Assembly: GCF_000003605.2 (NCBI RefSeq)
Contig: NW_003155739.1
Span: 104,446-137,394, forward strand
Source: Saccoglossus kowalevskii
Lineage: Eukaryota; Hemichordata; Enteropneusta; Harrimaniidae
Direction of reading: 5' to 3'
DNA: 32,949 bases
Part shown: in pieces, positions 3,401 through 31,639 of the stretch
Numbering within the stretch: position 1 is the stretch's first letter
Layout: each line of letters starts with the position of its first letter
Program-made: the position numbers and the translations under genes
The notes under the pieces: generated by a model
The model's database searches: none
The model's input: the letters and a program-made list of their open reading frames with translations, nothing else
What the model was told of the DNA's origin: nothing

Positions 3401-6400
3401 ACATTGCGAATGCAAAGGAATTGTTGCCAATAATTTGTGAACACTGTCAAATGCAAGTCTGTCTGAGGTAGGTCATTATTAATTGCCTCATGTAAGGTTT
3501 TGGCTTCATGAACAGTAAACTGTAAATCGCTTTGATTTTGTAAGAGACCAAATTTTGGTGTCAGCAAAAGTGGTTAAATTTTCTAGCAGTGAAAATTATT
3601 CTTGAGTCTTTTTAATAATAAAGATTTGTCTTCAAAAATGTCGTAAAATCGGGTAAATTACTGTTGGTGAAAATAAACAAATTACAGTTTATATTAACGC
3701 ATGTAAATACACTAACTGGTATCTTGCAAAACACCAAATGCTATTGTGTTTTATTTTCTCTCAGTCATCGGCATCAAGTGGATCACAGATGTAGTAAATA
3801 TGAAGCCCCTACCGAAAAGATGACTAAGACTTCTGAACATGTTCGTCAAATTATTGGTAAGATTAATTCTAGAGAGCTTTCCATGTTTGAAATCACAAAA
3901 TTAATGGTGAAATTACAAGTGAAAAATTCATTCAAAAATAAAACATATTATAAATAATTACATGTTGAATTTTGTAAATGCTACTGAAAAAAACTGCAAG
4001 AGGGAGCACTGCAATTCAGCGGCGCCACCAAGTAGGGGAGATAGGGTTCTCCTTACCAGAGAGTTTTTGATAATTCCAAGTTAAAATGGAGCATTATATG
4101 GCTTCCTTTGGCCAAAATTACTATCAGACAGGTCACAGTTGAAGACTGTGGCCACATGTGATCCCTGGTCAATCAGAATTTTATTGTTGCCAGAGGATCT
4201 GGTCCCCAGGGTGCGCTGCGCTGCGCCTCTGTTCCCCTGTTTAAAAAAATTCCTGGCATCAAGAGCTGAAATTGGAAGCTACCCAATTATCATTGATATT
4301 TACAGACAGATTATTAGGTACCATGACAGAATTTTAGCTCCTGAATGTAATAAATTGCAATCTGTGATGCAATCTGCCTACACCTATGAAAGCAAAATTA
4401 TTGGCAGCACAAATGGATAAAAAAAACTGTAAATTGCATTCTGCTATATTTGTGGAGCCCTTTCATCTGGGAGCATTAAGTTGTTTGCCTGGTCTTCCTT
4501 TTAATAATAAAATCAACATCAAATTAATAGATTCATTGTTATTAATGAACAGATTTTAATATTTAACATCCTGGACTCAAACGTAGCAGAAGTGCTATAA
4601 TGCAACAGAAATAGAATCCTGTCAAAGGCTGTAATCTCATTTATTAAAATAAGGTTTTCATGAGAATAACAAAAAGTATGCATTCAATGTACCCAAGAGT
4701 TTTGGAAACAATGTATATGCTTTGGAAGGGCAAGCTTGGCCTAAGGGCATTCCCAAACGCACAGTAAATCCTTCTCAGGAATGAAAATTTTACATGTTTA
4801 GTCAACTTCCTCTTTCTTGTGGCAAAAAATTATATTTATTCTTGTAGACATCAAAACGAAAAAGCCAGAATTCATGGCATACAAAAGATATGTAAAACAT
4901 TTCCTGGAGATAGAGTACTTCATTGCTGTCAGACGGAATAGGTTGACTTCTCACAATAAGAAATGGGGAAATTTTATGAAAAATGTTCTCCTGTCCACTA
5001 CACAATATGTAGATTATATGCACTCAGCAATACAGGGGTCATTGCATCCTCTGCTATGCTTCAGTTGATATGACCACAGAACTGCCATTGTGCATATTTT
5101 GTGGTATTGTTACGTTTGATGGAAAGGAGGTGACATGGGTGGTTCGTGTCTGGGGCTACGTCTTACCAAATACCTTACATCAACATTGGCAACAGCCCTA
5201 AAATGTATTAATTATATAGCTTTGATGACTACTTGTACTAGATTCAAAGAAAGATAAAAGTCCTTTGAAGAAAGGTCCCAGTGGTGTCAAATCTAAAAAG
5301 ACTGCTGCTAAAGTTGCTCTTATGAAAATGAAAATGCATGCTGTAGGGGACAAAGGCTTGCCTCAGGTAAGTAAGTTTATGAACACAAAGAACAAATATT
5401 ATAGCTACACTATATAATATGACTAATACCGAAGTTGTTCGGATAAGCACCCAGGGTTCTGAACATGGGAAAATTGCCAAAAAATAGGGGTGGGCGTATG
5501 CTAAGACATCCCCTGCAAAAAAACGAAAATTCGTGAAAATTGACAACACGCAGATCGAACTGCAGCAGGGAATAGAACGACAAATGAAAACATGCAACAG
5601 AAATAAATGAACAATATGCAACATTAGAAGTTTAACAAAAATAATTTATTCCTTACAATGTGACAAATAAACCAGAAATAATAAAAATCAACAGTTGTTT
5701 GTTGTATTTAAGGTTTCAATGTTTGTATATAAGATTTTACACAATGAAGCACCATCTTATCTATCAGAACTCATTACTATTCCAGTTCCAGTTAGGCAAA
5801 CTCGTTCTTCGTCCACTATAATATTATAAGCAAGAGCATTACAAAAAGAGGGCATTTCCCAAAGCTCTTTGCCTTGCTCCCACTTTGTCTGCTTTCAAGT
5901 CTCAAAAAAACCCTCATCATTACCATATATCTTACCATAGTACAATGATGTGTTTTATCCAGTTTTTAATGTAATCTTATTTTTCTAAATAATTTATTTT
6001 TTATAACTATTTTTTAATGTAAAGTGCATTGAGATTATATGTTTTATGTAATGCGATATATATGAATTAAAAATAATAATAATTATAATAATCACTGCAT
6101 GGCTTTAAGTGCCTTGGTTGGCTGGCTTCATCCACAGATTTTAATGAACTATGATTATGATTGTGTAGGTTGTAGTTTCCCTCTCAATTTGCATGATAAT
6201 ATAATCATATGTTTTACATGCCACATATATTGTAACATTTTTAGTTTGTCGCAGATTGTTTTAATTCCTCTTCAGAATTAATATATGATTTCAAATAAAA
6301 TGTGGAGACTTGAATTTGATTTACATAATTTTTTTTTTCAGAATGAAAGACTATACTTTGAAATATTTTTGCCACTTGGCCACAGTGTACGTAGTCAATC

Positions 6401-9400
6401 CATGTTTTTCTCCAAAGTATGGACTATTGGTAAAACTATTGATAAGATAGCGGAACTAGCAAAATTGAAAAATAACAACAATATAGTTACTGCACAGGTG
6501 AGCTCAATACTACTAGTATATCGATATATACCGTAAGGCCAGACTTTTTTAGTCCCCGTTCGGACGAAGTCCAAAAACGGGGACTTATAACTCGGTCTCC
6601 GTCCGTGCGTCTGTGCGTCTGTCCAGAGTCATATCTCAGAATCCCTTGGACCGATTCCGTTTATTCTTTGCATGTGCCTAGTATTTTATGTGGGACATAT
6701 GCACATGCAGTGGTTTAGCGATTCAATTCAAAATGGCCGACTGGCAGCCATCTTGTTTTTTGAAAATGTTGTATTTTGGACATGCTTTGTCAGTTTTCAT
6801 TCAAACTTAGTACATAGATTATACATGTTAGGATACATGTTCATGACGATTTATTTCACAATTGGATCAAAGATGACCGACTGGCAGCCATCTTGTTTTT
6901 TGAAAATGTTGTATTTTGGACATGCTTTGTCAGTTTTCATTCAAATTTAGTACATGGATCATACATGTTAGGATACATGTCCCCGACCATCCGTGAGTTC
7001 CTGAGTCCGTCCGTGTGTCAGTCCGTCCCTGCATCACTCTGTCCAGAGTCATATTTCAGAATCCTGTGCACCGATTCTGTTCATTCTTTGCATGTGCCTA
7101 GTACCTTATGTGGGACATATGCACATGCAGTAGTTTAGGTGATTTGATTCAAAATGGCCGACTGGCAGCCATCTTGTTTTTTGAAAATGTTGTATTTTGG
7201 ACACGTCAGTTGTCATTCAAACTTGGTACATAGATTATACATGTTAGGATACATGTCCATGACGATTTATTTCGCAATTGGATCAAAGATGGTTGACTGG
7301 CAGGCATCTTGTTTTTTTGTTTTTTTTATGCGGTATCTTGGACGTGCTCTGTCAGTTTTCATTCAAATTTGGCACATACATGTAATTTATACATTTTAGG
7401 ATGCATGTCCATGACAATTTGTTTCAAAATCTGGTCAAGGATGGCCGATTGACAGCCATCTGACTTTTTGGCCTTACTGCTATATTTCCACAATTTATGT
7501 ACCATTTTCATTCATATTTGGCACATACAATCATACATATCAGTGTGTTTCATAATCAGATTAAAGATGGCCGAATAATGGCTGTTTTTTATTTTTGACC
7601 ATATTACTACTACAAGGAACACATGTTTTGATGTAAATAAACTATCTGTTGTATACGCCACTTGGAACTTCAAGTTTCAAGGACACGCTCGCGACAACCC
7701 CTCCGCTTTAATATGACAAGCACAAAGAGAACTTTTAAAAATTTAACGGGGACTGTGTCATTTTTTATTTTTTGTTTCTCAAGTTTTTATAAGGCAAATT
7801 TTTTGAGGAGGGCGAAAAAAAAAAAAAATTAATTCTTTTTTTTTCTATTAGATTTGTGTGATTCTCAAAGAATTGTGAGTGAGATCATTTATCGGAGAGA
7901 AGAAATGAAATAAAATAAAATTTTATTTCATGTATAATCTTGTTTCTCATCTGCGCAAGACTTCGGTACTTTGATTATGATACTCCCACGAAAATGCAAC
8001 TTGGATTTGTTATGCAGCGGGCGAAAAAAAAATTAAGATAAAAATAATCTTTTTTTGTACTTAGAATTCGGCAGGCGTGAGAAATTACACTGAAATAAAA
8101 TTTTATTTTTATTTAATTTTCGGCCCCTGTTCATTCGGCGGGTTTGCGAAACAAGGGATAATAAAAGTCTGGCCTAATGTGAATGTGGGTACATAGCGTT
8201 TTGTGTTCATTCAACACATATCATTAAGAATTCAATAGTGCAATCAATAATACATACCAAGTAACCAGAAATAGACAACACACTTGAATTGGGTGTTATA
8301 GAAGTGATTGTGGAGCAAAAAATTAAAACTTTCTTTTTCAAAATGTTTTTTTTTTAAAACTTCCATGTTCTTTGTTACTAATTTGTTTATACATTGCTGA
8401 ACTATCGTAGCAGTGATTGGTAATTTCTGTATTATCACAACAATGACTTGTACCGGTAATTGTTGACATCGCTAATTACCCTTATCCATAATAAATGACG
8501 GAAGTTGCCAGCTTTGGAAACCCATTAGCAAGCTGCCGGAACCTGACAGGAAACCCCAGAGTATAAAAAAGATTACTTGCTTTACATTGCCCAACGTTCT
8601 CCAGAATGTTAGATCTCATCCAGTATACATTTTTGACTCCCATGTGCGAAGCACAAAATGGGAGTCTTTGCGGTTAGTGTGTCTGTATGTGTATGTGTAT
8701 GTGTGTGTGTATGTGTGTCCGTCTGTTCCACTGATATCTCAAGAACCATACATCAGTTTTTTATGAAACTTGGTGCATAGATGCTCTGGGCTAATGCGCA
8801 GATTTGATTAGTTTTTGGTAAAATTTCATGCATATTAATTACCTAATTTGCATGATAATAAGCTAATTTTTAGCTGTTCCATGATTGTTCCATTGATATC
8901 TAAAGAACCACTTATTGGATTTTGATGAAACTTGGTACATAGATGCTCTGAACTAATGCTTGGTTTTGATTAGTTTTTGGTAAAAATTACCTACTAGTAA
9001 TTACTGATTACCTAATTTGCATAATGATTCGTCAATTTTAGTACTAATCATCACATTTCAATGAAACTTGGTACATAGATGTCATAGAACACTGCACAGA
9101 CCTGGTAGTTTTTAGGGTAATGTCAGTGCATATTAATTACTAATTTGCATAATTAATTAATTTTCAGCTTTTAATGTTTCAAGTAGTAAGCATTACATTT
9201 TAATAAAACTTGGTACATAGATACTCAAGGACTATGCAGGGATTGATTGTTTTGGGATAAATATTTGTGCATATTAATTACTAATTTGCATAATTAGTTA
9301 ATTTTCAGCTTTTCCCACAGATATCTCAAGTACTAATTATCACATTGCAATGAAACTTGGTACATAGATCCTTTAGGACTATCCAGAGACCTGATTAGCT

Positions 9401-11632
9401 TTAGGGTAATTAATTGTGTATATTAATTACCTAATTTGCATAATTAATTAATTTTCAGCTTTTAATGTTTCAAGTAGTAAGCATTACATTTTAATAAAAC
9501 TTGGTACATAGATACTCAAGGACTATGCAGGGATTGATTGTTTTGGGATAAATATTTGTGCATATTAATTACCTAATTTGCATAATTAGTTAATTTTCAG
9601 CTTTTCCCACAGATATCTCAAGTACTAATTATCACATTGCAATGAAACTTGGTACATAGATCCTTTAGGACTATCCAGAGACCTGATTAGCTTTAGGGTA
9701 ATTAATTGTGTATATTAATTACCTAATTTGCATAATTAATTAATTTTCAGCTTTCACACTGATTTCTCAAGTACTTAATCATCACATTTCAATGAAACTT
9801 TGTACATGGATGCTGTAGGACAATAGACAGACCTGGATTAAAATCTGTACATATTAATTACTAATTTACATAATTAACCATTTTTAAGCTATTACACTGA
9901 TATCTAAAATACTAATTATTCCATTTCAATGAAACTTAGTGCAAAGATGCTCTAGGACAATGTACAAACCTGATTAGTTTGGGGTTAAAATCTGTTCATA
10001 TTAATTCCCTAATTAGCATAATAATTTATAATTTTTTTTGGTTCCAATCACATTTCAATAAAACTTGGTACATAGATGGTCTGTTACATTGCGCAGACCT
10101 CGTTAGTTTTCCATTAAAATCTGTTCATATTAATTTTTTGATTTGCATTATTAGTTTTCGGCTTTTCCATCACTATCACTATCTCTGACAAGTAATTTTG
10201 AATTATATTTAATGTGTCTCCAATACTCTTGAGCAGCACATAGGAGTTCTTTCTAAGCTTTCTTGATTGTACATATTTGTGGATGATAATTATAATACAT
10301 TTGATTGTTTATATTTGATTTATATATCTTGTTACTTTAACATGATACACTGACCTGACCTGTTCCCAAATTAGATTACTTGTAATTACTCCAACATCTA
10401 AAATAATTAGCTTATTACAACAGGTCAACACAAAGTTGTTTTTTTCCACAAAAAAAAAATCACAATGGGTTCTATGGCCGTAAAAACAAATATATGTTCT
10501 TATCTGCTCACCAGAGGGCAGCCTGCCACTACACATTGCTCATAAATTAGTAAGTCAGAAAGAGGGGGGGGGCATAAAGTTTGTTTACCAAGATGATAGT
10601 GTGTGACAGGTTTTTTTACAGTACCTATATAATTTCAAATTACTAAGCTTCACCTAACTATTAAAGTCTATTGTTGCCCAAACCTATTATTGGTCAATGT
10701 CAATATAAAAAAAATGCAGTGTATATCACTTACAGGGATTTTTTTAAACAAGGGAACAAGGGCGCAGCGCCCTCATGCCAGGGCCATGCGCCTCCTTACC
10801 CTGGGGAGCAGATCCGCTGGCAACCATAAAATTCTGATTGACCAGGAATCACGTGTGTCCACAGTCTTCAACTGCATGTGACCTGTCTGATAGTAATTTT
10901 GGCCCCAAGGAAGCCATAGAATGCTCCATTTTAACTTAGAATTATCAAAAACTCCACACCCCAGTAGGGAGAACCCTATCTCCCCCACTTGGTGGCGCCG
11001 CCGCTAAATTGCAGTGCTCCCTCTTGCAGTTTTTTTCTAGAAAAACCCTTGTCACACACAATTGAAGTAATTGAATTGAGACCTTGAACATCATGTTTCC
11101 AAAGCCAAAAAAAAGTTTTTCATTGGTTCATCAAAGCTCACATGATTTGACCACTGCCACTGATTGACTATTTTATTTGGTGGACAAGATTATGCTGCCT
11201 GATAGATGATATTTATTTGTTTAGCGCCCTCTATAGACAGATAATGCCTGACATCAATACTTGCATGATTTGACCACGGCCTCTGATAGGCTATTTGCTA
11301 GAGGAAGATTTTAATTGAGTTGCCTGATAGCAATATTTACCTATTTATCGCCCTCTATAGATAGTTAATGGCTTACATCAATACATGTAAAGAGTTACCA
11401 TTTTATAACTCACTTCAGTCTTAATAACTAGTATTCATAATATCGTCAAAATATTTACTTTCAGAAACTACGTATATTTGATGAGAACGGTTGTATTATA
11501 TTACCTTTAGAGCAGTCATTGGATAGGCTGATAGAAAGTGAGGTGTTTCACAGTGGAGGCTCTGTTATAATAGAGTATGTAGATGACAGTTGTGCTAAGT
11601 TGGAAAATATTGAGAGTTATTCATCACGATAA
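427..11632 (+). CDS. ZFAND1: AN1-type zinc finger protein 1 (ZFAND1), 8 coding exons
   Basis: Coding segments are 427-481, 1734-1776, 2412-2451, 3339-3467, 3765-3856, 5242-5366, 6342-6497 and 11465-11632. All have GT-AG borders and fit in phase. With one extra base in exon 4 discounted, the product is 268 residues. Finger 1 ligands are C10, C15, C25, C28, C33, H36, H42, C44; finger 2 ligands are C64, C69, C79, C82, C87, H90, H96, C98. A Lys/Ser-rich linker (about 100-140) leads to an Ala-Lys helix and a ubiquitin-like C-terminal domain (about 162-260). The start MAELDIGKHC sits in a good context (AAAATGG). In mammals the family recruits p97/VCP and the 26S proteasome to arsenite-induced stress granules; yeast Cuz1 is the counterpart. 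That role is inferred by homology. As given, exon 4 carries a +1 shift and a stop at 3438-3440, so the assembled allele would encode about 79 residues. Confidence 0.95.
950..1510 (+). mobile_element. non-LTR retrotransposon (LINE) 3' end, decayed
   Basis: In intron 1, about 1008-1150 translates as HIETGRYTNKDVTDRKCQIC and then EKHFFLQCSHYTELR. This is the CCHC-like knuckle (C-x2-C, then H and C) found at the C-terminus of many LINE ORF2 proteins. After a frame slip at the T7/A5 run near 1146-1155 it continues to TIIELGRLIYSCLQMRKK and a stop at 1294-1296. A 3' UTR follows, ending in AATAAAGTTATTATTATTAT near 1488-1508, a typical simple-repeat LINE tail. It is 5' truncated and inactive. Confidence 0.75.
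1734..1776 (+). CDS. ZFAND1: ZFAND1 exon 2
   Basis: A 43 bp microexon-sized segment after a pyrimidine-rich TTTCTTTTTCAG acceptor. It codes for DFLPFTCSGCSKIF plus two bases of the next Cys, giving ligands C25 and C28. The donor GTAAGT at 1777 is a perfect consensus. It is too short for ORF-based gene finding and was recognised by homology. Confidence 0.93.
2412..2451 (+). CDS. ZFAND1: ZFAND1 exon 3
   Basis: A 40 bp exon coding for the end of C33 and then LEHRSMDVHQCSK. It completes finger 1 with H36, H42 and C44. The acceptor is GGTTTTCAG and the donor is GTGGGT at 2452. The intron that follows is phase 0. Confidence 0.92.
2752..2975 (+). mobile_element. diverged copy of the TTAA-flanked MITE
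   Basis: This stretch in intron 3 aligns in the same orientation with 27081-27300. Shared segments include GTGTTGATAAACATTGATTT, CAATCCAATG and AATGGAAATCACAA. Its left end AGGTGGTGGTCG follows TTAAT at 2748-2752, matching the TTAA-flanked start of the other copy. The right inverted repeat is missing or unrecognisable. Confidence 0.6.
3339..3467 (+). CDS. ZFAND1: ZFAND1 exon 4, with +1 frameshift
   Basis: The first reading frame gives CNISDEKPEFQGPKSYK and then the second-finger start CSFEHCECK. The match then jumps frame to ELLPIICEHCQMQVCL. The spacing C64-x4-C69-x9-C79 fits the family only if one base of the AAAGG run (3414-3418) is surplus. Read as written, the frame reaches TGA at 3438-3440. 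The acceptor is TTGTACAG (ending 3338). A second AG acceptor ends at 3351. The donor is GTAGGT at 3468. A sequencing or assembly indel is the simplest explanation, but a true allele cannot be excluded. Confidence 0.9.
3765..3856 (+). CDS. ZFAND1: ZFAND1 exon 5
   Basis: Completes S89 and then codes for HRHQVDHRCSKYEAPTEK onward, ending in VRQII plus one base. It supplies the last ligands of finger 2 (H90, H96, C98) and the start of the linker. The acceptor is TTTTCTCTCAG and the donor is GTAAGA at 3857. Vertebrate proteins have Arg where this one has Ser89; that residue is not a ligand. Confidence 0.93.
3985..4253 (+). mobile_element. hAT-like non-autonomous element, copy A
   Basis: About 265 bp in intron 5 are closely similar to the reverse complement of 10733-11040. 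Shared blocks include AAAACTGCAAGAGGGAGCAC, GAGATAGGGTTCTCC, AATTACTATCAGACAGGTCA and GGTCAATCAGAATTTTAT. The open frame across it (product reading ATCDPWSIRILLLPEDL) is also present in the other copy, but I think it reflects shared repeat sequence and not a gene. This copy lacks the outer terminus seen in copy B. Confidence 0.65.
4254..4425 (+). mobile_element. LINE ORF2 C-terminal fragment
   Basis: An open stretch ends in a stop at 4418-4420. It reads RAEIGSYPIIIDIYRQIIRY, then HDRIL, and later LQSVMQSAYTYE. This resembles the ElGryPl-idi---iikYw-rl segment that follows the reverse transcriptase domain in many LINEs. It abuts the hAT-like repeat and has no recognisable 3' tail, so it is a broken fragment. 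Confidence 0.5.
5242..5366 (+). CDS. ZFAND1: ZFAND1 exon 6
   Basis: Codes for DSKKDKSPLKKGPSG, then a basic linker and KTAAKVALMKMKMHAVG, ending in GLPQ, all characteristic of the family. The acceptor is ACTTGTACTAG and the donor is GTAAGT at 5367 (phase 0). A long minus-strand open frame over the same bases (5244-5624) is a shadow of this exon. Confidence 0.94.
5700..6092 (+). mobile_element. LINE 3' end (CR1/L2/Rex-like style), decayed
   Basis: In intron 6, about 5728-5825 reads YKILHNEAPSYLSELITIP and then VRQTRSS. After frame slips come RAFPKA, LAPTLSAFKS and similar, a garbled form of the RAFS-AAP-LWN-LP...FKS-LK motif at LINE C-termini. The 3' end has GTAAAGTGCATTGAGATTAT and a tail of AATAATAATAATTATAATAA at about 6068-6092. 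It sits 250 bp upstream of exon 7. Confidence 0.65.
6342..6497 (+). CDS. ZFAND1: ZFAND1 exon 7
   Basis: Codes for 52 residues beginning NERLYFEIFLPLG and ending NNNNIVTAQ. This is the first half of the ubiquitin-like C-terminal domain, including the MFF..VWTIGKTID segment typical of ZFAND1. The acceptor has a long T-tract and the donor is GTGAGC at 6498. Intron 7 is nearly 5 kb and is almost entirely repeats. Confidence 0.95.
6551..6585. other. terminal stem-loop of AGTCCCC-family element
   Basis: The outer arms AGTCCCCGTT (6551-6560) and AACGGGGACT (6576-6585) pair perfectly over 10 bp. Inside are an unpaired C (6561), an inner stem GGAC/GTCC (6562-6565 with 6569-6572), a GAA loop (6566-6568) and a 3' AAA bulge (6573-6575). 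Confidence 0.8.
6551..7760 (+). repeat. AGTCCCC-family hairpin-headed tandem-array element, copy 1
   Basis: The left end is AGTCCCCGTT (6551-6560) and the right end is AACGGGGACT (7745-7754). A GTCCGTGCGTCTGTGCGTCT segment and TCATATCTCAGAATCC follow the left hairpin. Then come tandem units with a core like ATGGCCGACTGGCAGCCAT at 6733, 6873, 7154, 7289 and 7441. A higher-order duplication of about 420 bp repeats the GTCC/ATATTTCAG leader near 7006-7130. Each unit has an AAACTTAGTACATAGATTAT-like phrase. The layout resembles pearl/HINE-type elements of bivalves, which carry tandem cores, but no family assignment is proven. Confidence 0.7.
8631..10175 (+). repeat. GACTCCCAT-family tandem array, copy 1 (10 units of about 144 bp)
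   Basis: A terminal hairpin is followed by a TATGTGTATGTGTGTG microsatellite, GTCCGTCTGTTCC and GATATCTCAAGAACCA. Ten monomers follow, each carrying TGAAACTTGGTACATAGATG or a variant. The AAACT start positions are 8766, 8928, 9064, 9206, 9353, 9497, 9645, 9795, 9932 and 10061. Each monomer ends with CATATTAATTACCTAATTTG and an ATAATTAATTAATTTTCAGC-like stretch. No coding frame is present. Confidence 0.85.
8635..8666. other. terminal stem-loop of GACTCCCAT-family element
   Basis: The outer arms GACTCCCAT (8635-8643) and ATGGGAGTC (8658-8666) pair perfectly over 9 bp. The inner stem is GTGC/GCAC (8644-8647 with 8651-8654), with a GAA loop (8648-8650) and an AAA bulge (8655-8657). The layout matches the hairpin at 6551-6585 although the stem sequences differ. 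Confidence 0.8.
10509..10522 (+). promoter_or_regulatory. CTCF-like motif
   Basis: CACCAGAGGGCAGC matches the core of the CTCF consensus known from vertebrates and flies. It lies in intron 7 between the tandem array and hAT-like copy B. A single 14 bp match in 33 kb has limited weight. Confidence 0.35.
10733..11051 (-). mobile_element. hAT-like non-autonomous element, copy B (inverted relative to copy A)
   Basis: Termini are CAGGGATTTTTTTA at 10733 and, at the other end, CCCTTG ending at 11051, whose complement starts CAAGGGTTTTTCT. CA-GGG ends are usual for hAT elements. The flanks TCACTTA and TCACACA could be a decayed target duplication. The interior matches copy A at 3985-4253 in reverse orientation. 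No transposase is encoded. Confidence 0.6.
11465..11632 (+). CDS. ZFAND1: ZFAND1 exon 8 with stop codon
   Basis: Codes for KLRIFDENGCIILPLEQSL and then the conserved GGSVIIEYVDD strand, ending in SYSSR and TAA (11630-11632). It closes the ubiquitin-like domain. The acceptor is ATTTACTTTCAG. A consensus donor (AAG then GTAAGA) lies 22 nt after the stop, so the 3' UTR may itself be spliced. Confidence 0.95.
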   Translation, partial: KLRIFDENGCIILPLEQSLDRLIESEVFHSGGSVIIEYVDDSCAKLENIESYSSR

Positions 11633-14029: not shown

Positions 14030-15360
14030 GCTAGTACGTGCGTGCGTGCATGCGTCCAGACCCGTATTTTAGAAATGCCTGGACCAATCACAATCAAACT
14101 TCACACATGCATCATACATGATATTATACATATGCACGTAAATTTGTTTCATGATCTGATTCAAGATGGCCGAATGGCGGCCATTTTTGTGCTAAAAATC
14201 ATCAAAATCAAGCATTTCCTGGCTGTTTACAGATGGATTTTGTTCAAACCTTGTACATACGTTGGACATTATAGGACCTTGATGCACATCATTTTTTTTT
14301 ACGATCTGATTCAAGATGGCCGAATGGCGGCCATTTTTGTGCTAACAAATCCTAAAATTCAAGCATTTCTTGGTTGTTTACAGATGGATTTTGTTCAAAC
14401 TTGGTATGTACATTAGACATTATAGTACCTTGATGCAAATAATTTTGTTTTTCAGATAAGATTCAAATTGGCTGACTGGCGGCCATTTTGTTTTCATGAA
14501 TGTGGTTCTCGTGCCATATCTCTGACTTGCTTTCACTGATTATGTTAAAATTTTAAATATTCATTATACATCATGCCATAGATAGACAGAGACATTGGTT
14601 TGACGATCCTATTCAAAATGGCCAAATGGTGGCCATTTTTGTGCTAAAAAATCATCAAATATCAAGCATTTCTGGATGAATTTCGTTCAAACTTGGTACA
14701 TACATTAGACATTACAGGTTCCGGATGCACATCATTTATTTTTCAGATTGGATTCAAAATGGCTGTCTGGCGGCCATTTTGTTTTAATGAATGGGCTTCT
14801 AGACCCATATTTCCGACTTGTTTTGACTGATTATGTTCAAATTTTAAATATTCATTATACATAATGTCATAGATAAACAGATATATTGGTTTGACGATCC
14901 TATTCAAAATGACCGAATGGTGGTCATTTTTGTGCTAAAAAATCATCGAATATCAAGCATTTCTGACATTTATGGATGGATTTCGTTCAAACTTGGTACA
15001 TACATTAGACATTACGGGTTCCTGATGCACGTCATTTTATTTTTCAGATTGGATTAATTCTAGAGCCATACACACATGTATCTCTTAAATGCTTTGACTG
15101 ATTATATTCAAATTTTATATATTCATTATACATCATGTTATATATACATGTATTCAAAATGGCTGATTTTGACTGCTGTTCCAGAGCAATATCTCTCAAT
15201 ATGGACAAGTACTTGTTTGACGATCAGATACAAATGTCAATCATTTTAATGTTAAAAAATCATATTCCTGACATGGTTATATTTCAGCTATATTATTATA
15301 AACAAAACTATATATCTTAAATTTGATAACTAACGGGGACTGTGCCATGCATGGCTTGTT
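14030..15360 (+). repeat. AGTCCCC-family element, copy 2 (5'-truncated)
   Basis: It starts in GTGCGTGCGTGCATGCGTCC without the left hairpin and ends with AACGGGGACT (15332-15341) and the palindrome GCCATGCATGGC (15344-15355). Units of about 150 bp carry palindromic cores at 14166, 14316, 14468, 14618, 14759 and 14909. The units alternate between two types, giving a 291 bp higher-order period (14468 to 14759 and 14618 to 14909). Each unit has TTCAAACTTGGTACATACAT or a variant. Confidence 0.75.
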
Positions 15361-15974: not shown

Positions 15975-16590
15975 AGTCCCTGTTCGAACACAGCTTGAAA
16001 ATGCGAACATGTGTCTGTCAGTCAGTCTGTCTGTCAGGACATGTATCTAAGGCCAAGGCATGGCTGATCACATTCAAACTTCACACTTGGTTCATACATT
16101 GGATATTATGAGTACCGTGGGTACAATTGATTCACATCATTTTGTTTTTTAGATCAGATTCAATATAGCCAACCAGTGGTCATTTTGTGATTCCATCCTG
16201 TAGTTCTTGCCTGATCATGTTCAAGTATATGTATCATATATGATGTCACACATACCACATTAAGATTTGACAATCAGATTCATTTTGATGTTACAAATGC
16301 ATCAAAGTCAAGCATATTTGCCATTAGGGACCCAGATCTTGCTTGCCCTACTTTGTACATACATATAACTGGTTCATAATGTTTTTTTCAGGTCAGATTT
16401 GAAATCGATAGCCAATAAAAATGCTGTTCTAGCACCATGTCTCTGACATGCATTTACTGATCGCAATCAAACTTTACAACTAGACATTATATCATTTTGT
16501 TTCATATTCTGATTCAAAACGGCAGGCCCATTTTAGTTTTGTTTACTATTGAACCAACAGGGACTATGTCATCTCATGATGTAACTTGTT
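15975..16590 (+). repeat. AGTCCCC-family element, copy 3 (diverged)
   Basis: The left end is AGTCCCTGTT (15975-15984) and the right end is AACAGGGACT (16556-16565). They are exact inverted complements, although both differ from the copy 1 ends. A GTCTGTCAGTCAGTCTGTCT segment follows, and then weakly preserved units (ATCACATTCAAACTTCACAC and GTGGTCATTTTGTGATT). The inner terminal hairpin has decayed. Confidence 0.65.
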
Positions 16591-17574: not shown

Positions 17575-18800
17575 ATATAAACCACAAACATGTATTATTA
17601 TTGAGGTTGTAAACTGCACACTTGTTTTCAAATTGAGATTGTAAACATCATACCTGTATTCATGTGGAGATTGTACACATCGCACCTGTATTCACATGGA
17701 GATTGTAAACGTCACACCTGTATTCATGTGAAGATTGTAAACATCACACCTGTATTCACATGGAGATTGTAATCGTCACACCTGTATTCATGTGAAGATT
17801 GTAAACATCACACCTGCATTTGTGTGAAGATTGTAAACATCATACCTGTATTCATGTGGAGATTGTACACATCACACCTGTATTCACATTGAGATTGTAA
17901 ACGTCACACCTGTATTCATATGAAGATTGTAAACATCACACCTGTATTCACATGGAGATTGTAAACATCACACCTGTATTCATGTGAAGATTGTAAACAT
18001 CACACCTGCATTCATGTGAAGATTGTAAACATCACACCTGTATTCATGTGGATATTGTAAACATCGCACCTATATTCATGTGGGGACTGTAAACATCATA
18101 TCTGTGTTCATGTGAAGATTGTAAACATCACACCTGTATTCATGTGAAAATTGTAAACATCACACCTGCATTCATGTGGAAATTGTGAACATCATACTTG
18201 TATTTACATGGAGATTGTAACTTGCACACTTGTATTCAAATTTAGATTGTAAATATTGCACCTGCATTGACGTGAAGATTGTAAACATCACTGTTGTATT
18301 TAAATGAACATCATACTTGTATTTATTGAGAGTGTAAACCACACACCTGTATTCATGTTAAAATTGTAAACATCACAACTGTATGCATTTGCAGATTATA
18401 ACTATCATACCTGTATTTATGGGAAAATTGTAAACATCACAACTGTATTTATTTAAGTTTTTAAATATCAACTATATTCAAATACAGATTTTGAAGATAA
18501 GACTTGTATTCAAATTATGTTTGTAAACATCACACCTGTATTTATGTGGAGATTGTAAACATCATACCTGTATTCATGAGAAGATTGTAAACGTCACACC
18601 TGTATTCATGTGGGGATTGTAAACATCGTATCTGTATTTATGTGGGGATTGTAAACATCATACCTGTATTCATGTGGAGATTGTAAACATCATTCTTGTA
18701 TTCATGTGGAGATTGTTAACATCACACATGTATTCAAATGGAGATTTAAAAAAATCACACTTGTATCTATATGGAGATTTTGAACATCACACTTGGAGAA
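17575..18800. repeat. minisatellite, 32 bp unit, about 37 copies
   Basis: The consensus unit is CACACCTGTATTCATGTG followed by GAGATTGTAAACAT (32 bp). The centre (17690-18180) and the 18520-18720 block are regular. The edges and 18180-18510 are degenerate, with units drifting in length. In 17690-17960, units with TTCACATGGA alternate with TTCATGTGAA units, giving a 64 bp dimer. About twenty units keep TGTAAACA exactly, and most keep the CACCTG E-box. Confidence 0.9.
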
Positions 18801-19739: not shown

Positions 19740-20400
19740 TGTTGCACGTCACACAGGATAGACAGACAGACATGAAAAACATGTTTTTAGCTCTGCTGTT
19801 GACTTTGTCGAGTGGAGCTTATCATATGAGTGGTTGTTCGTCGTCTTCGTCCGTGTCAATGTTTTACTTTTTCGACTTCTTCTTGAAAACTACAAGCCTG
19901 AATGCTTTGATACTTGGTGTATATGTACCTTGGTTAGACCGCTCTCAGATTTGTTCAATTCATGATGATATCTTTAATTCTCTAATTTTAGTGAATATTT
20001 TTGTCATTTTTGGTAAAAAGTGATATTTTTGACTTCTTGTTAAAAACCGTAAGTCCAATTGCTTTGATATTACATATATAGGTACTAAATGTGGACCTCT
20101 CCCAGATTTGTACATTTAATAATCATATCTTCAATTCTCTAATTTTGGAGAATATTTTTGTCATTGTTGGTAAAAAATGATATTTTCGACTTCTTGTTAA
20201 AAACCGCAAGTCCAATTGCTTTGATATTGCATATATAGGTACTACATGTGGACCTCTTTCAGATTTGTTAATTCCATGGTGATATCTTCAATTATCTAAT
20301 TTTAATGATTATTTTTGTCATTTTTGGTGAAAAGTGATATTTTTGAATTCTTGTTGAAAACAGCAAGTCCCATTGCTTTGATACTATACATATTGTTCAT
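19740..20400 (+). repeat. four-unit tandem repeat of about 160 bp with a leader
   Basis: Units beginning near 19868, 20029, 20187 and 20343 share TTGACTTCTTGTTAAAAACC, AAGTCCAATTGCTTTGATAT, GGACCTCT-CAGATTTGT and ATATCTTCAATTCTCTAATT. The leader holds CACACAGGATAGACAGACAG, CTTATCATATGAGTGGTTGT and a TCGTCGTCTTCGTCCGTG run. The 110-codon open frame at 19691-20023 with an apparent signal peptide is produced by this repeat and is not a gene. Confidence 0.75.
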
Positions 20401-22040
20401 TTTCTAATGATATCTTCTGTTCTTTTATTGAAATGTGCATTGCTAACAGCGGAGCTATCTCTGCCGACAGGCTGCTTGTTAAATAGCTTGAAGCCTGGTG
20501 ATTCTAAAAATGTATATTTTGATGGGTCTTTTGTAACCATTTATAGTCATAATCAGTCATTTATAGTCACAAGATGAAAACTTGTACACAAATAATACTC
20601 TTGCTATGCCTAAGGACTGACAAATAGTATGAAGTCCCAAGGAGTCTTAATGTAATACTGCCATACCTATCTATTCTAGCTGCTCAAGAAAAATACCACA
20701 GACTAAATATAAATACCCTCTAAATAAAGAATGTCAAATTTAATAAGACCTAGTTGCAGACACCAATTAACTTTCTACCTGGAAGTGTGGTACCATGCTG
20801 AGTTGTGATATCACCACATTGGGTGGGCATCCAACCACAGTGACACTTGAATCCAGGTCATCTAAAAAGTTATAATTAATTCCTAAATTAATGGTTCAAA
20901 ATGTGATACATGGCAAATAATTTATTGATATTTGACAGCACAATGAACTGACAGATGCATCTTTTATGTAGTAGATATGTAAACTATATTGTGATGTCAT
21001 GTCTCTCTATACTCAGTACAGGGAAAGAAAGTGAAATAAAATCAGTCATTGACTTTATGTTCTTAAAATATCTCTAAACTTATTTAACTCATCAGGAATA
21101 TAATGTAGAGATGCATTCCAGTAGATATTATGCTTGATTGTAACTTCACTGCAAACCGTTTTTATTGGGAGGTGTTGCTTTTACAGGGAGGGTAATGCTG
21201 CCTATCATTCTGGAAGAATAATTTTAGTTTCATTTTACCACATGTAAAGTTATTTTGAGGATTGGTGGACCAAGGATTTTTCTGAACTCTCACAAAATTG
21301 TCATAAATCATAAATACTGTATTTTCTGTAATAAATTAGCCAGAATTTTGATAAACAAATGAAACCCTATTCAATGGCCTTGGTTGCCTGGAAAGGAGAG
21401 ACAATTGGCACCACGTACCTCATCCCAACAAAAATGCTCTTCCCCATACCATAATAGTGTAGTGATCCTTGGGCAATTCTAGATGGGTCATATCTGTTTT
21501 TATCATCGTATTTTATTTCATTTTGTGCCTCTATATAATTTTCATCTGTTCCTGTCAGTTATAAATAAATATAGGTTTATACAGGTTTCACCTTAATGGG
21601 ATAAATTTATCTGAAAGCTTTTTCAATGTCATATCATATTGCTTGATTGTTTATATGAATATCAATTGCCTGCTCTTGTTTGACATTACAATTTTCATAT
21701 TGTGGGAATTTAATTCTTGTCTCAAGAAATCCATTGTTATATAAAATGTTGTCTCTGATCCCTGATGCCTAACAATCTTAAATATTACTATTACTGTTAC
21801 CAGTAAATGTCAGCCTTTTAAGTGAACCCCTAATATTATCTGAAATATATCTCCCAAACATTGGCGGAAACTGAATGCTAAACCTCCCTAACCATATTTT
21901 TCAGGAAATCAATCAAGGAAATCAAGTTTATTTTATGCAAATGAGCAAATTCTATATATTTTCAGCTGTCCAATTAGATCGAAACTTGGTTCAGTGCTCT
22001 AGCATATTAAAAACAGTTGATTTGTGTTACAATACAATCT
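20401..22040. other. non-coding stretch, no feature recognised
   Basis: No exon, RNA gene or clear repeat was found. The tail end (about 21955-22062) is a weak remnant of the AGTCCCC-family monomer, with GATCGAAACTTGGTTCAGTG and a palindromic core at 22044-22062. Confidence 0.4.
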
Positions 22041-29360: not shown

Positions 29361-29865
29361 TTTTGACTCCCATATGCGAAGTCTTTGTGTGTCTGCCTGT
29401 TCCACTGATATCTCAAGAACCATATGTTTGTTTTGGAAGAAACTTGATGCATAGATGCTCTGGGCTAATGTGCAGATTAGATTAGGTGTTGGATTAAATC
29501 CATGCATATCAATTACCTAATTTTCATAATGATTAGTCAATATTCAGTGTTTCCACAGATGTCTCAAGTACTATTCATCACATTACAATGAAACATGGTA
29601 CATAGATGTCATAGGACAATTCACAGACCTGATAAGTTTTGGGTTAATACATTTACATGAAAGTCTGTGCATATCAATTACCTGATTTGCATAACAATCA
29701 GTTATCAGGTTTTTCATCAATATCTTAAGTACTTAAATCTTATTTCAATGAATCTTGGTACATAAATACTCTAAGACAATGCAATGATCTAATTAGTTTT
29801 GGGTGTATATACATCCATAATAATTACCTAATTTGCATAATAACTTATATTTTGGCTTTCTCTCG
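29361..29865 (+). repeat. GACTCCCAT-family element, copy 2 (3 units)
   Basis: It starts TTTTTGACTCCCATATGCGAAG (GACTCCCAT at 29365-29373) and continues GTCTTTGTGTGTCTGCCTG, CACTGATATCTCAAGAACCA and monomers with GAAACTTGATGCATAGATGC, TGAAACATGGTACATAGATG and TGAATCTTGGTACATAAATA. The hairpin's 3' side (inner arm and outer arm) is missing, as if deleted between the GAA loop and the following TCTTTG. Confidence 0.75.
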
Positions 29866-31436: not shown

Positions 31437-31639
31437 TACTGTAAAATACTTTCTTTTAGCTGAAATTAAATTTTACTGAAAAAGTTTTTTGGGTGTTTTG
31501 TATGTAATTTATTTTCACTGATTTTTGTCGAGTTGAATGTAAAATATAGGATAAAAAGTATAATCAGTGGAATCTATTTTCACTGAAGCATCTCTTCAGT
31601 GAAAATAACTTCCAAGCGAAATTAAAGTATTCTACAGTA
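31437..31639. mobile_element. 203 bp MITE with TACTGTA termini
   Basis: The ends TACTGTAAAATACTTT (31437-31452) and AAAGTATTCTACAGTA (31624-31639) are inverted repeats with one mismatch in 16. Each begins with TA, so a TA target duplication (Tc1/mariner type) is possible. Inside, TATTTTCACTGAAG (31575-31588) and CTTCAGTGAAAATA (31594-31607) form a perfect 14 bp stem with a 5 nt loop. Confidence 0.7.

Follow-up and report, generated by a model that had tools for sequence, protein, structure and literature searches.

Families A and B, two repeat families that open with similarly shaped hairpins, lie in a 32,949-nucleotide stretch of Saccoglossus kowalevskii DNA (the window), and we conclude that both are very probably HINEs, non-autonomous members of the Helentron group of rolling-circle transposons that carry a satellite-like tandem array as cargo. 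Each has 5′ and 3′ subTIRs, a local inverted repeat, a microsatellite leader and central repeats. Together with T-rich targets, empty sites of family A that are free of duplications and the absence of a long ORF, these features make up the layout published for HINEs. Both families have many copies in the genome, which also contains a Helentron-type protein locus.

Organization of families A and B

Family A spans window positions 6551 to 7776. It starts with AGTCCCCGTT directly after TT, and its end consists of a second copy of the 3′ arm of its hairpin (AACGGGGACT), a short palindrome and CTTGTT. Its features are as follows.

6545–6550, + strand, run of Ts bordering element A on its 5′ side, belonging to the target, the terminus or both; TT in 21/21 copies
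6551–6585, + strand, 5′ head: subTIR at 6551–6560 and a local interrupted inverted repeat with its arm at 6576–6585
6590–6625, + strand, leader, a degenerate GTCC/GTCT-rich microsatellite, read from the sequence and present in 20 fetched copies
6630–7720 (approximate bounds), + strand, central degenerate repeats with the ATATCTCA phrase and AAACTTRGTACATA monomers
7745–7754, + strand, 3′ subTIR AACGGGGACT, a perfect 10 bp complement of 6551–6560
7755–7776, + strand, 3′ palindrome and terminus, degenerate in the window copy

Family B spans positions 8635 to 10268, starting with GACTCCCATGTGC directly after TTTTT and ending with GCACATGGGAGTT ... TTTGATT.

8630–8634, + strand, TTTTT bordering element B on its 5′ side; exactly five Ts in 26/30 copies
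8635–8666, + strand, 5′ head: subTIR GACTCCCATGTGC, interrupted inverted repeat GCAC-AAA-ATGGGAGTC, GAA loop
8677–8718, + strand, leader, a TGTATG/GTGT microsatellite, read from the sequence
8731–10200 (approximate bounds), + strand, central tandem array of about 150 bp monomers with AAACTTGGTACATA
10236–10248, + strand, 3′ subTIR, uninterrupted, GCACATAGGAGTT in this copy, 11/13 against the 5′ subTIR
10255–10268, + strand, 3′ palindrome (AAGCTT) followed by the terminus, which reads TTTGATT in the majority of fetched ends
29365–29850, + strand, a second B copy, damaged, with the greater part of the inverted repeat missing from its head

Because of the second copy of the 3′ arm, the 5′ arm of each element has two complements, one immediately next to it and the other close to the 3′ end. 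The original prediction described a GTCTGTC-rich leader in both families. This description fits A, but the leader of B consists mostly of TGTATG/GTGT and contains only a short GTCCGTCTGTTCC stretch. The ATATCTCA phrase was found after both leaders as anticipated, at 6631 in A and 8734 in B, and was present seven times in the window compared with 2.03 expected, the largest number in any shuffle being six. Monomers of the AAACTTGGTACATA type were likewise enriched, with 21 occurrences (at most two mismatches) compared with 0.81 expected. A text search of the literature for this 14-mer returned no match. TRF reported no array in A, the repeats of which are degenerate, and a second partial copy of the leader lies inside them from about 6985. 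We also observed an inverted repeat within the A monomer (TGCATGTGCCTA / TATGCACATGCA) at 6669–6709 and 7089–7129, which was present in many A copies. Neither A nor B appears to have coding capacity; the largest ORF in either element (ATG, GTG or TTG starts) has 92 aa.

Families A, B, C and D of the window (C and D are described below) have different ends but loosely share a phrase, ATATCTCAGAA...AAACTTGGTACATA. An alignment of nine hand-chosen stretches had a mean column identity of 54%, with 6 of 77 columns invariant, and a phrase common to families with different ends is no more than suggested by so loose an alignment.

Shape and folding of the hairpin heads

The A hairpin (6551–6585) consists of a 10 bp outer stem, one unpaired C, a 4 bp inner stem (GGAC/GTCC), a GAA loop and an AAA bulge, while the B hairpin (8635–8666) has a 9 bp outer stem, a 4 bp inner stem (GTGC/GCAC) and the same loop and bulge. 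Both hairpins had been predicted with these positions, stems, loops and bulges, and a scan of both strands of the window for the GAA-loop shape identified 6551 and 8635 as the only two places. When folded as single-stranded DNA, the A hairpin reached −11.2 kcal/mol (z = −3.8) and the B hairpin −11.1 kcal/mol (z = −6.4), and in each case none of 200 shuffles folded as well. The 5′ arms of the two families have no detectable similarity, as 1267 of 5000 shuffled arms aligned equally well. Thus the stems have no detectable common sequence, as had been proposed, and a shared shape without shared sequence is a fair point for A and B.

It had also been claimed that every structural element occupies the same place in both hairpins. 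This needs qualifying. In 14 of 22 family A rows the inner stem can extend to 5 bp (CGGAC/GTCCG), leaving a bulge of AA, and the window's version was present in only three of the 22. Since most A rows allow the longer inner stem and shorter bulge, the two shapes are close without being identical.

The folding results bear on the possibility that the heads are chance palindromes in front of ordinary immobile satellite arrays. Compensatory changes are absent from the 5′ stems in both families (see below), in keeping with such an origin, but the failure of all 200 shuffles to fold as well, the dozens of copies with the same ends in varying flanks and the empty sites described in the next section all argue against it, and we give it practically no chance of being correct.

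Copies, ends and target sites

Copies of A and B were sought in the 572 Mb genome (4830 contigs). The search with A gave 1953 first-look candidates, 40 of which were scored, and that with B gave 1589, again with 40 scored, so that copy numbers are numbers of candidates only. For A we examined the window copy together with 20 further copies, fetched with their flanks from among 39 full matches elsewhere in the genome. The hairpin directly followed TT in all 21 copies, and the sequence further upstream varied between them. In family B, at least TT preceded GACTCCC in 30 of 30 loci, the window locus included, and the sequence further upstream again varied. As proposed, the 5′ end of the element therefore coincides with the hairpin in both families.

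The 3′ end of A was found in 15 of the 21 copies, most commonly as AACGGGGACTGTGTCATTTTCAATGACTTGTT followed by a varying flank. Five of these 15 ends were free of errors. In other copies the palindrome reads GTCATT-loop-AATGAC and is followed by CTTGTT. No A 3′ end under the error limit was found in the remaining six copies (L042, L044, L045, L051, L053 and L058).

The end of B was read from five extended copies and the window. The shared sequence stops at GCACATGGGAGTTCTTTCTAAGCTTTCTTTGATT or close variants of it in L010, L022 and the window, and the remaining three extended copies run into N. A search with the B 3′ end gave 1004 candidates, 40 of which were scored, and among 20 places fetched for their resemblance to this end the terminus was present in all 20 (13 of them exact), with differing flanks. 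Most of the fetched ends carry the 3′ subTIR GCACATGGGAGTT, which pairs with the 5′ GACTCCCATGTGC at 12 of 13 positions and is uninterrupted, unlike the local hairpin partner of the 5′ subTIR, which is split by AAA. The sequence AATGGGAGTC (at most one error) was present in none of the 30 B loci within 0.8 to 1.7 kb of downstream sequence.

Empty sites were sought by joining 80 bases of each flank of the 15 A copies that had both ends and comparing the product with the window and the fetched loci. We found empty sites for two of the 15 copies, L056 and L057, both of which are insertions in one repeat family. Uninterrupted versions of this host repeat are present in L031, L037, L021, L012 and L015 and at window 31499–31639; the repeat is dispersed and contains TTTTCACTGAA-type inverted repeats. 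The joined flanks of L056 meet at GGATTTTATT^TTCACTG without a duplication, and the empty copies align across this junction with substitutions, with nothing duplicated or lost at the junction itself. Matches of L046 and L048 to their own 3′ ends, the shorter alignments that L056 and L057 gave with L043 and L006 (the same place) and one match to the minus strand of the window were not counted as empty sites. The target of A is thus T-rich and without a target-site duplication, as judged from TT in 21 of 21 copies and the empty sites of two. One A copy, that of L048, lies immediately downstream of a C-type element and begins where the CTTGTT of the latter stops.

DINE-1-like elements were formerly taken to be cut-and-paste MITEs with terminal inverted repeats, and A would suit this view in having perfect inverted repeats of 10 bp close to its two ends. 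The 3′ repeat of A, however, lies about 22 bp inside the end and is followed by a palindrome, and the empty sites of two A copies are without target-site duplication. We therefore consider a cut-and-paste MITE origin very unlikely.

Canonical Helitrons have a 5′ TC, a 3′ CTRR with a hairpin and an A^T target. We rejected assignment to this group, as A ends in CTTGTT, B ends in TTTGATT and the targets are T-rich.

Genomic setting and related elements

One half of the ZFAND1 ubiquitin-like domain (PF25327, Pfam) was matched by window 6342–6497 (6.9e-11) and the other half by window 11465–11629 (0.0065, under the Pfam cut-off). These two exon-like stretches flank A and B, and the elements therefore seem to lie in an intron. 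Element A is also enclosed by the ends GGCCAGACTTTT (6537–6548) and AAAAGTCTGGCC (8163–8174), which are flanked by TAA (window 6534–6548 and 8163–8177). The unit around A is probably a PIF/Harbinger-like cut-and-paste element that duplicates TAA, with A nested inside it. A 32 bp minisatellite, TGTATTCATATGGAGATTGTAAACATCACACC, occupies window 17591–18792 with about 37 units. An Rfam search of the whole window identified no family at threshold.

The same 33 kb contains four more HINE-like insertions, which are the damaged second B copy and the following three elements.

14041–15360 (5′ bound approximate), + strand, element C, a 5′-degraded relative of A; 3′ end at 15332–15360
15975–16590, + strand, element D, a short decayed relative of A, AGTCCCTGTTCGAAC ... 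AACAGGGACT, CTTGTT
19789–20480, + strand, element E, a third HINE-like family, AGCTCTGCTGTT ... AACAGCGGAGCT, CTTGTT

Element C has the 3′ subTIR of A with a different 3′ palindrome, GCCATGCATGGC, and no intact head was seen in it. The 3′ end of E was read in the window copy only, with a subTIR match of 11/12. The consensus of the E head is AGCTCCGCT-gt-CGAC-ttt-GTCG-AGCGGAGCT, which has an inner stem, a TTT loop and a bulge on the 5′ side.

Covariation and distribution of the hairpin shape

The original prediction held that a conserved shape with changed stems reflects selection on the hairpin. Copies with fully consensus-paired heads made up 11 of 22 A rows and 20 of 31 B rows, the A rows including one (L042) that is out of register through an indel. 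Compensatory cells numbered 0 of 330 in the 22 A rows and 0 of 403 in the 31 B rows. Since no cell contained a pair-keeping change on both sides, covariation does not support selection on the A and B heads. One outer pair of B was changed on both sides, to G and A, in 7 of 31 rows, and this variant breaks the pair. The genome search for E gave 653 candidates, 40 of which were scored, and 20 heads were fetched for their resemblance to the mutated window copy; these contained one compensatory cell, and none of the 20 was fully Watson-Crick paired. In an earlier sample of five E copies, three heads were fully paired and no compensatory cell was found. With only three families, it is not possible to distinguish selection on shape from palindromes having been captured repeatedly.

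At the 3′ end, comparison of A-type with C-type palindromes identified a single pair altered in both of its bases, from T-A to C-G. The C-type ends compared were those at window 15332 and in L048, a third (L032) being damaged. Loci L001 to L009 were left out of this and the covariation comparisons as duplicates. By sequence, the 6 bp palindrome stem of A was intact in 10 of 15 ends, that of C is GCCATGCATGGC and that of B is only AAGCTT. When the ends of C, D and B were folded, many shuffles did as well, with 41 of 200 as good for the window C end, 86 of 200 for the window D end and 40 of 200 for a B end with its flank (L073).

A two-tier hairpin scan of the window and the fetched loci returned 105 rows compared with six in one shuffle, and 96 of the 105 belonged to A, B or E; several rows can describe one hairpin, and the A and B loci had been chosen for carrying hairpins. 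The corresponding single-tier scan returned 144 rows compared with seven in one shuffle. Ninety of the 144 were not keyed to A or B, some of these being A or E heads and many being one inverted repeat of the A monomer.

Across the genome, a pattern with other inner stems, the GAA loop and AAAA, which covers one exact form only, had 22 matches, whereas its reversed control had 25. In this exact form the GAA-loop shape is thus not the marker of a wide class here.

Comparison with known elements

According to PMC4067079, HINEs are defined by subTIRs, a 3′ palindrome, T-rich targets and the lack of target modification, and have an inverted repeat whose 5′ side nests in the 5′ subTIR. A microsatellite and central tandem repeats are found in many HINEs, not all. 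Among the elements closest in description are the 11 Cg_HINE elements of Crassostrea gigas (PMC7492417), in which a 5′ subTIR with a complementary inverted repeat is followed by a microsatellite (GTCY, GTCC or GTCK in several), satellite-like arrays of mostly 140–180 bp central tandem monomers, a 3′ subTIR and a palindrome. Further points in common with A and B are the TT target without target-site duplication, the presence of several unrelated families in one genome and an autonomous partner that is not identified. The gap between subTIR and inverted repeat is 1–12 bp in Cg_HINE, whereas that between the outer arms is 15 nt in A and 14 nt in B when compared by description. In A and B the gap holds the inner mini-stem, and counting this stem as part of the repeat leaves a 3-nt loop. 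Pearl elements of bivalves, which PMC7492417 describes as short arrays of about 160 bp repeats, are also classified there among the HINEs.

In Drosophila DINE-1 (PMC2374699) the 5′ subTIR likewise adjoins a partial and/or interrupted inverted repeat; the element also has a GTCY microsatellite, central repeats that vary, TT targets and a 3′ stem-loop whose structure is kept while its sequence differs between species, for which compensatory mutations were suggested. It differs from A and B in its 13 bp subTIRs of other sequence and in its hosts. HINE-Mo and Helentron-Mo of Metaseiulus occidentalis (PMC4067079) resemble A and B in having subTIRs 2–4 nt from the 5′ end, a 3′ palindrome of 5–10 bp, a variable number of Ts at the termini and no target modification. 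In these mite elements the 3′ subTIR lies 38–60 bp from the 3′ end, compared with about 20–22 bp here, the subTIRs are themselves palindromic and the autonomous partner is known.

These comparisons bear out the proposed likeness to pearl/HINE elements, as the layout is that published for DINE-1, HINE and Cg_HINE (PMC2374699, PMC4067079, PMC7492417). For the same reason the suggestion of an undescribed class is not supported. Such a class of mobile element, hairpin-headed and carrying a tandem array but unrelated to Helentrons, would draw on the inner stem, GAA loop and A-rich 3′ bulge common to two families with dissimilar stems, and the literature searched, as far as its text was available, gave no description of this exact loop and bulge. 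The larger features are nevertheless those of published HINE and DINE-1 anatomy, the inverted repeats of DINE-1 had already been called partial and/or interrupted (PMC2374699), and the shape with other inner stems was no commoner than the control (22 compared with 25 matches). We accordingly judge a separate class to be highly improbable. The main inference of the original prediction had itself been published for such elements in 2008, since PMC2374699 argued for DINE-1 that an inverted-repeat structure conserved despite changing sequence implies function.

A Helentron-type protein locus

A search of the genome with Pfam Helitron_like_N gave eight matches, all over the cut-off. The best locus (L072, C2261:3144500-3154400, minus strand) consists of three adjacent open pieces with matches to the Rep domain Helitron_like_N (PF14214, 9.5e-31), a PIF1 helicase (3.7e-24) and an Exo_endo_phos endonuclease (5.1e-12), and the motif-2 S residue is present. 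A DUF6570 match precedes the Rep domain in the first piece, and the locus is broken. The tested motifs of A and B had no match within two mismatches at this locus, part of which reads N, while E motifs had three two-mismatch resemblances in two places. Helentron machinery was thus present in this genome, but the locus does not show it to be what moves A or B.

Model for movement and significance

From what is known of the family, we infer that HINEs A and B move by rolling-circle transfer driven by an autonomous Helentron relative, with the hairpins serving as start and stop or binding structures. In such a model, the Rep, helicase and endonuclease of this relative would nick the T-rich ends, with the head and the 3′ subTIR and palindrome read as start and stop signals. 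One strand would then be peeled off by rolling-circle replication and joined into a TT target without duplication. The hairpins would act in single-stranded DNA as structures for protein recognition or for stopping, and the 5′ subTIR could pair either with its neighbouring interrupted complement or with its match some 20 bp inward of the 3′ terminus, beside the palindrome. A more speculative version, which we consider rather unlikely, is a two-state switch in which the bulged local hairpin and end-to-end pairing of the subTIRs (clearest in B) compete and thereby time strand transfer; unlike families would then have kept or re-evolved the two-tier bulged triloop fold because the Helentron Rep reads shape.

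Our results assign abundant repeats of the Saccoglossus kowalevskii genome, A and B and probably E, to the Helentron group. As the exact ends of A and B are fixed, their annotation and masking become straightforward. What is left on the mechanistic side is modest, namely the bulged inner stem of HINE heads as a candidate structure for recognition by the Helentron Rep.
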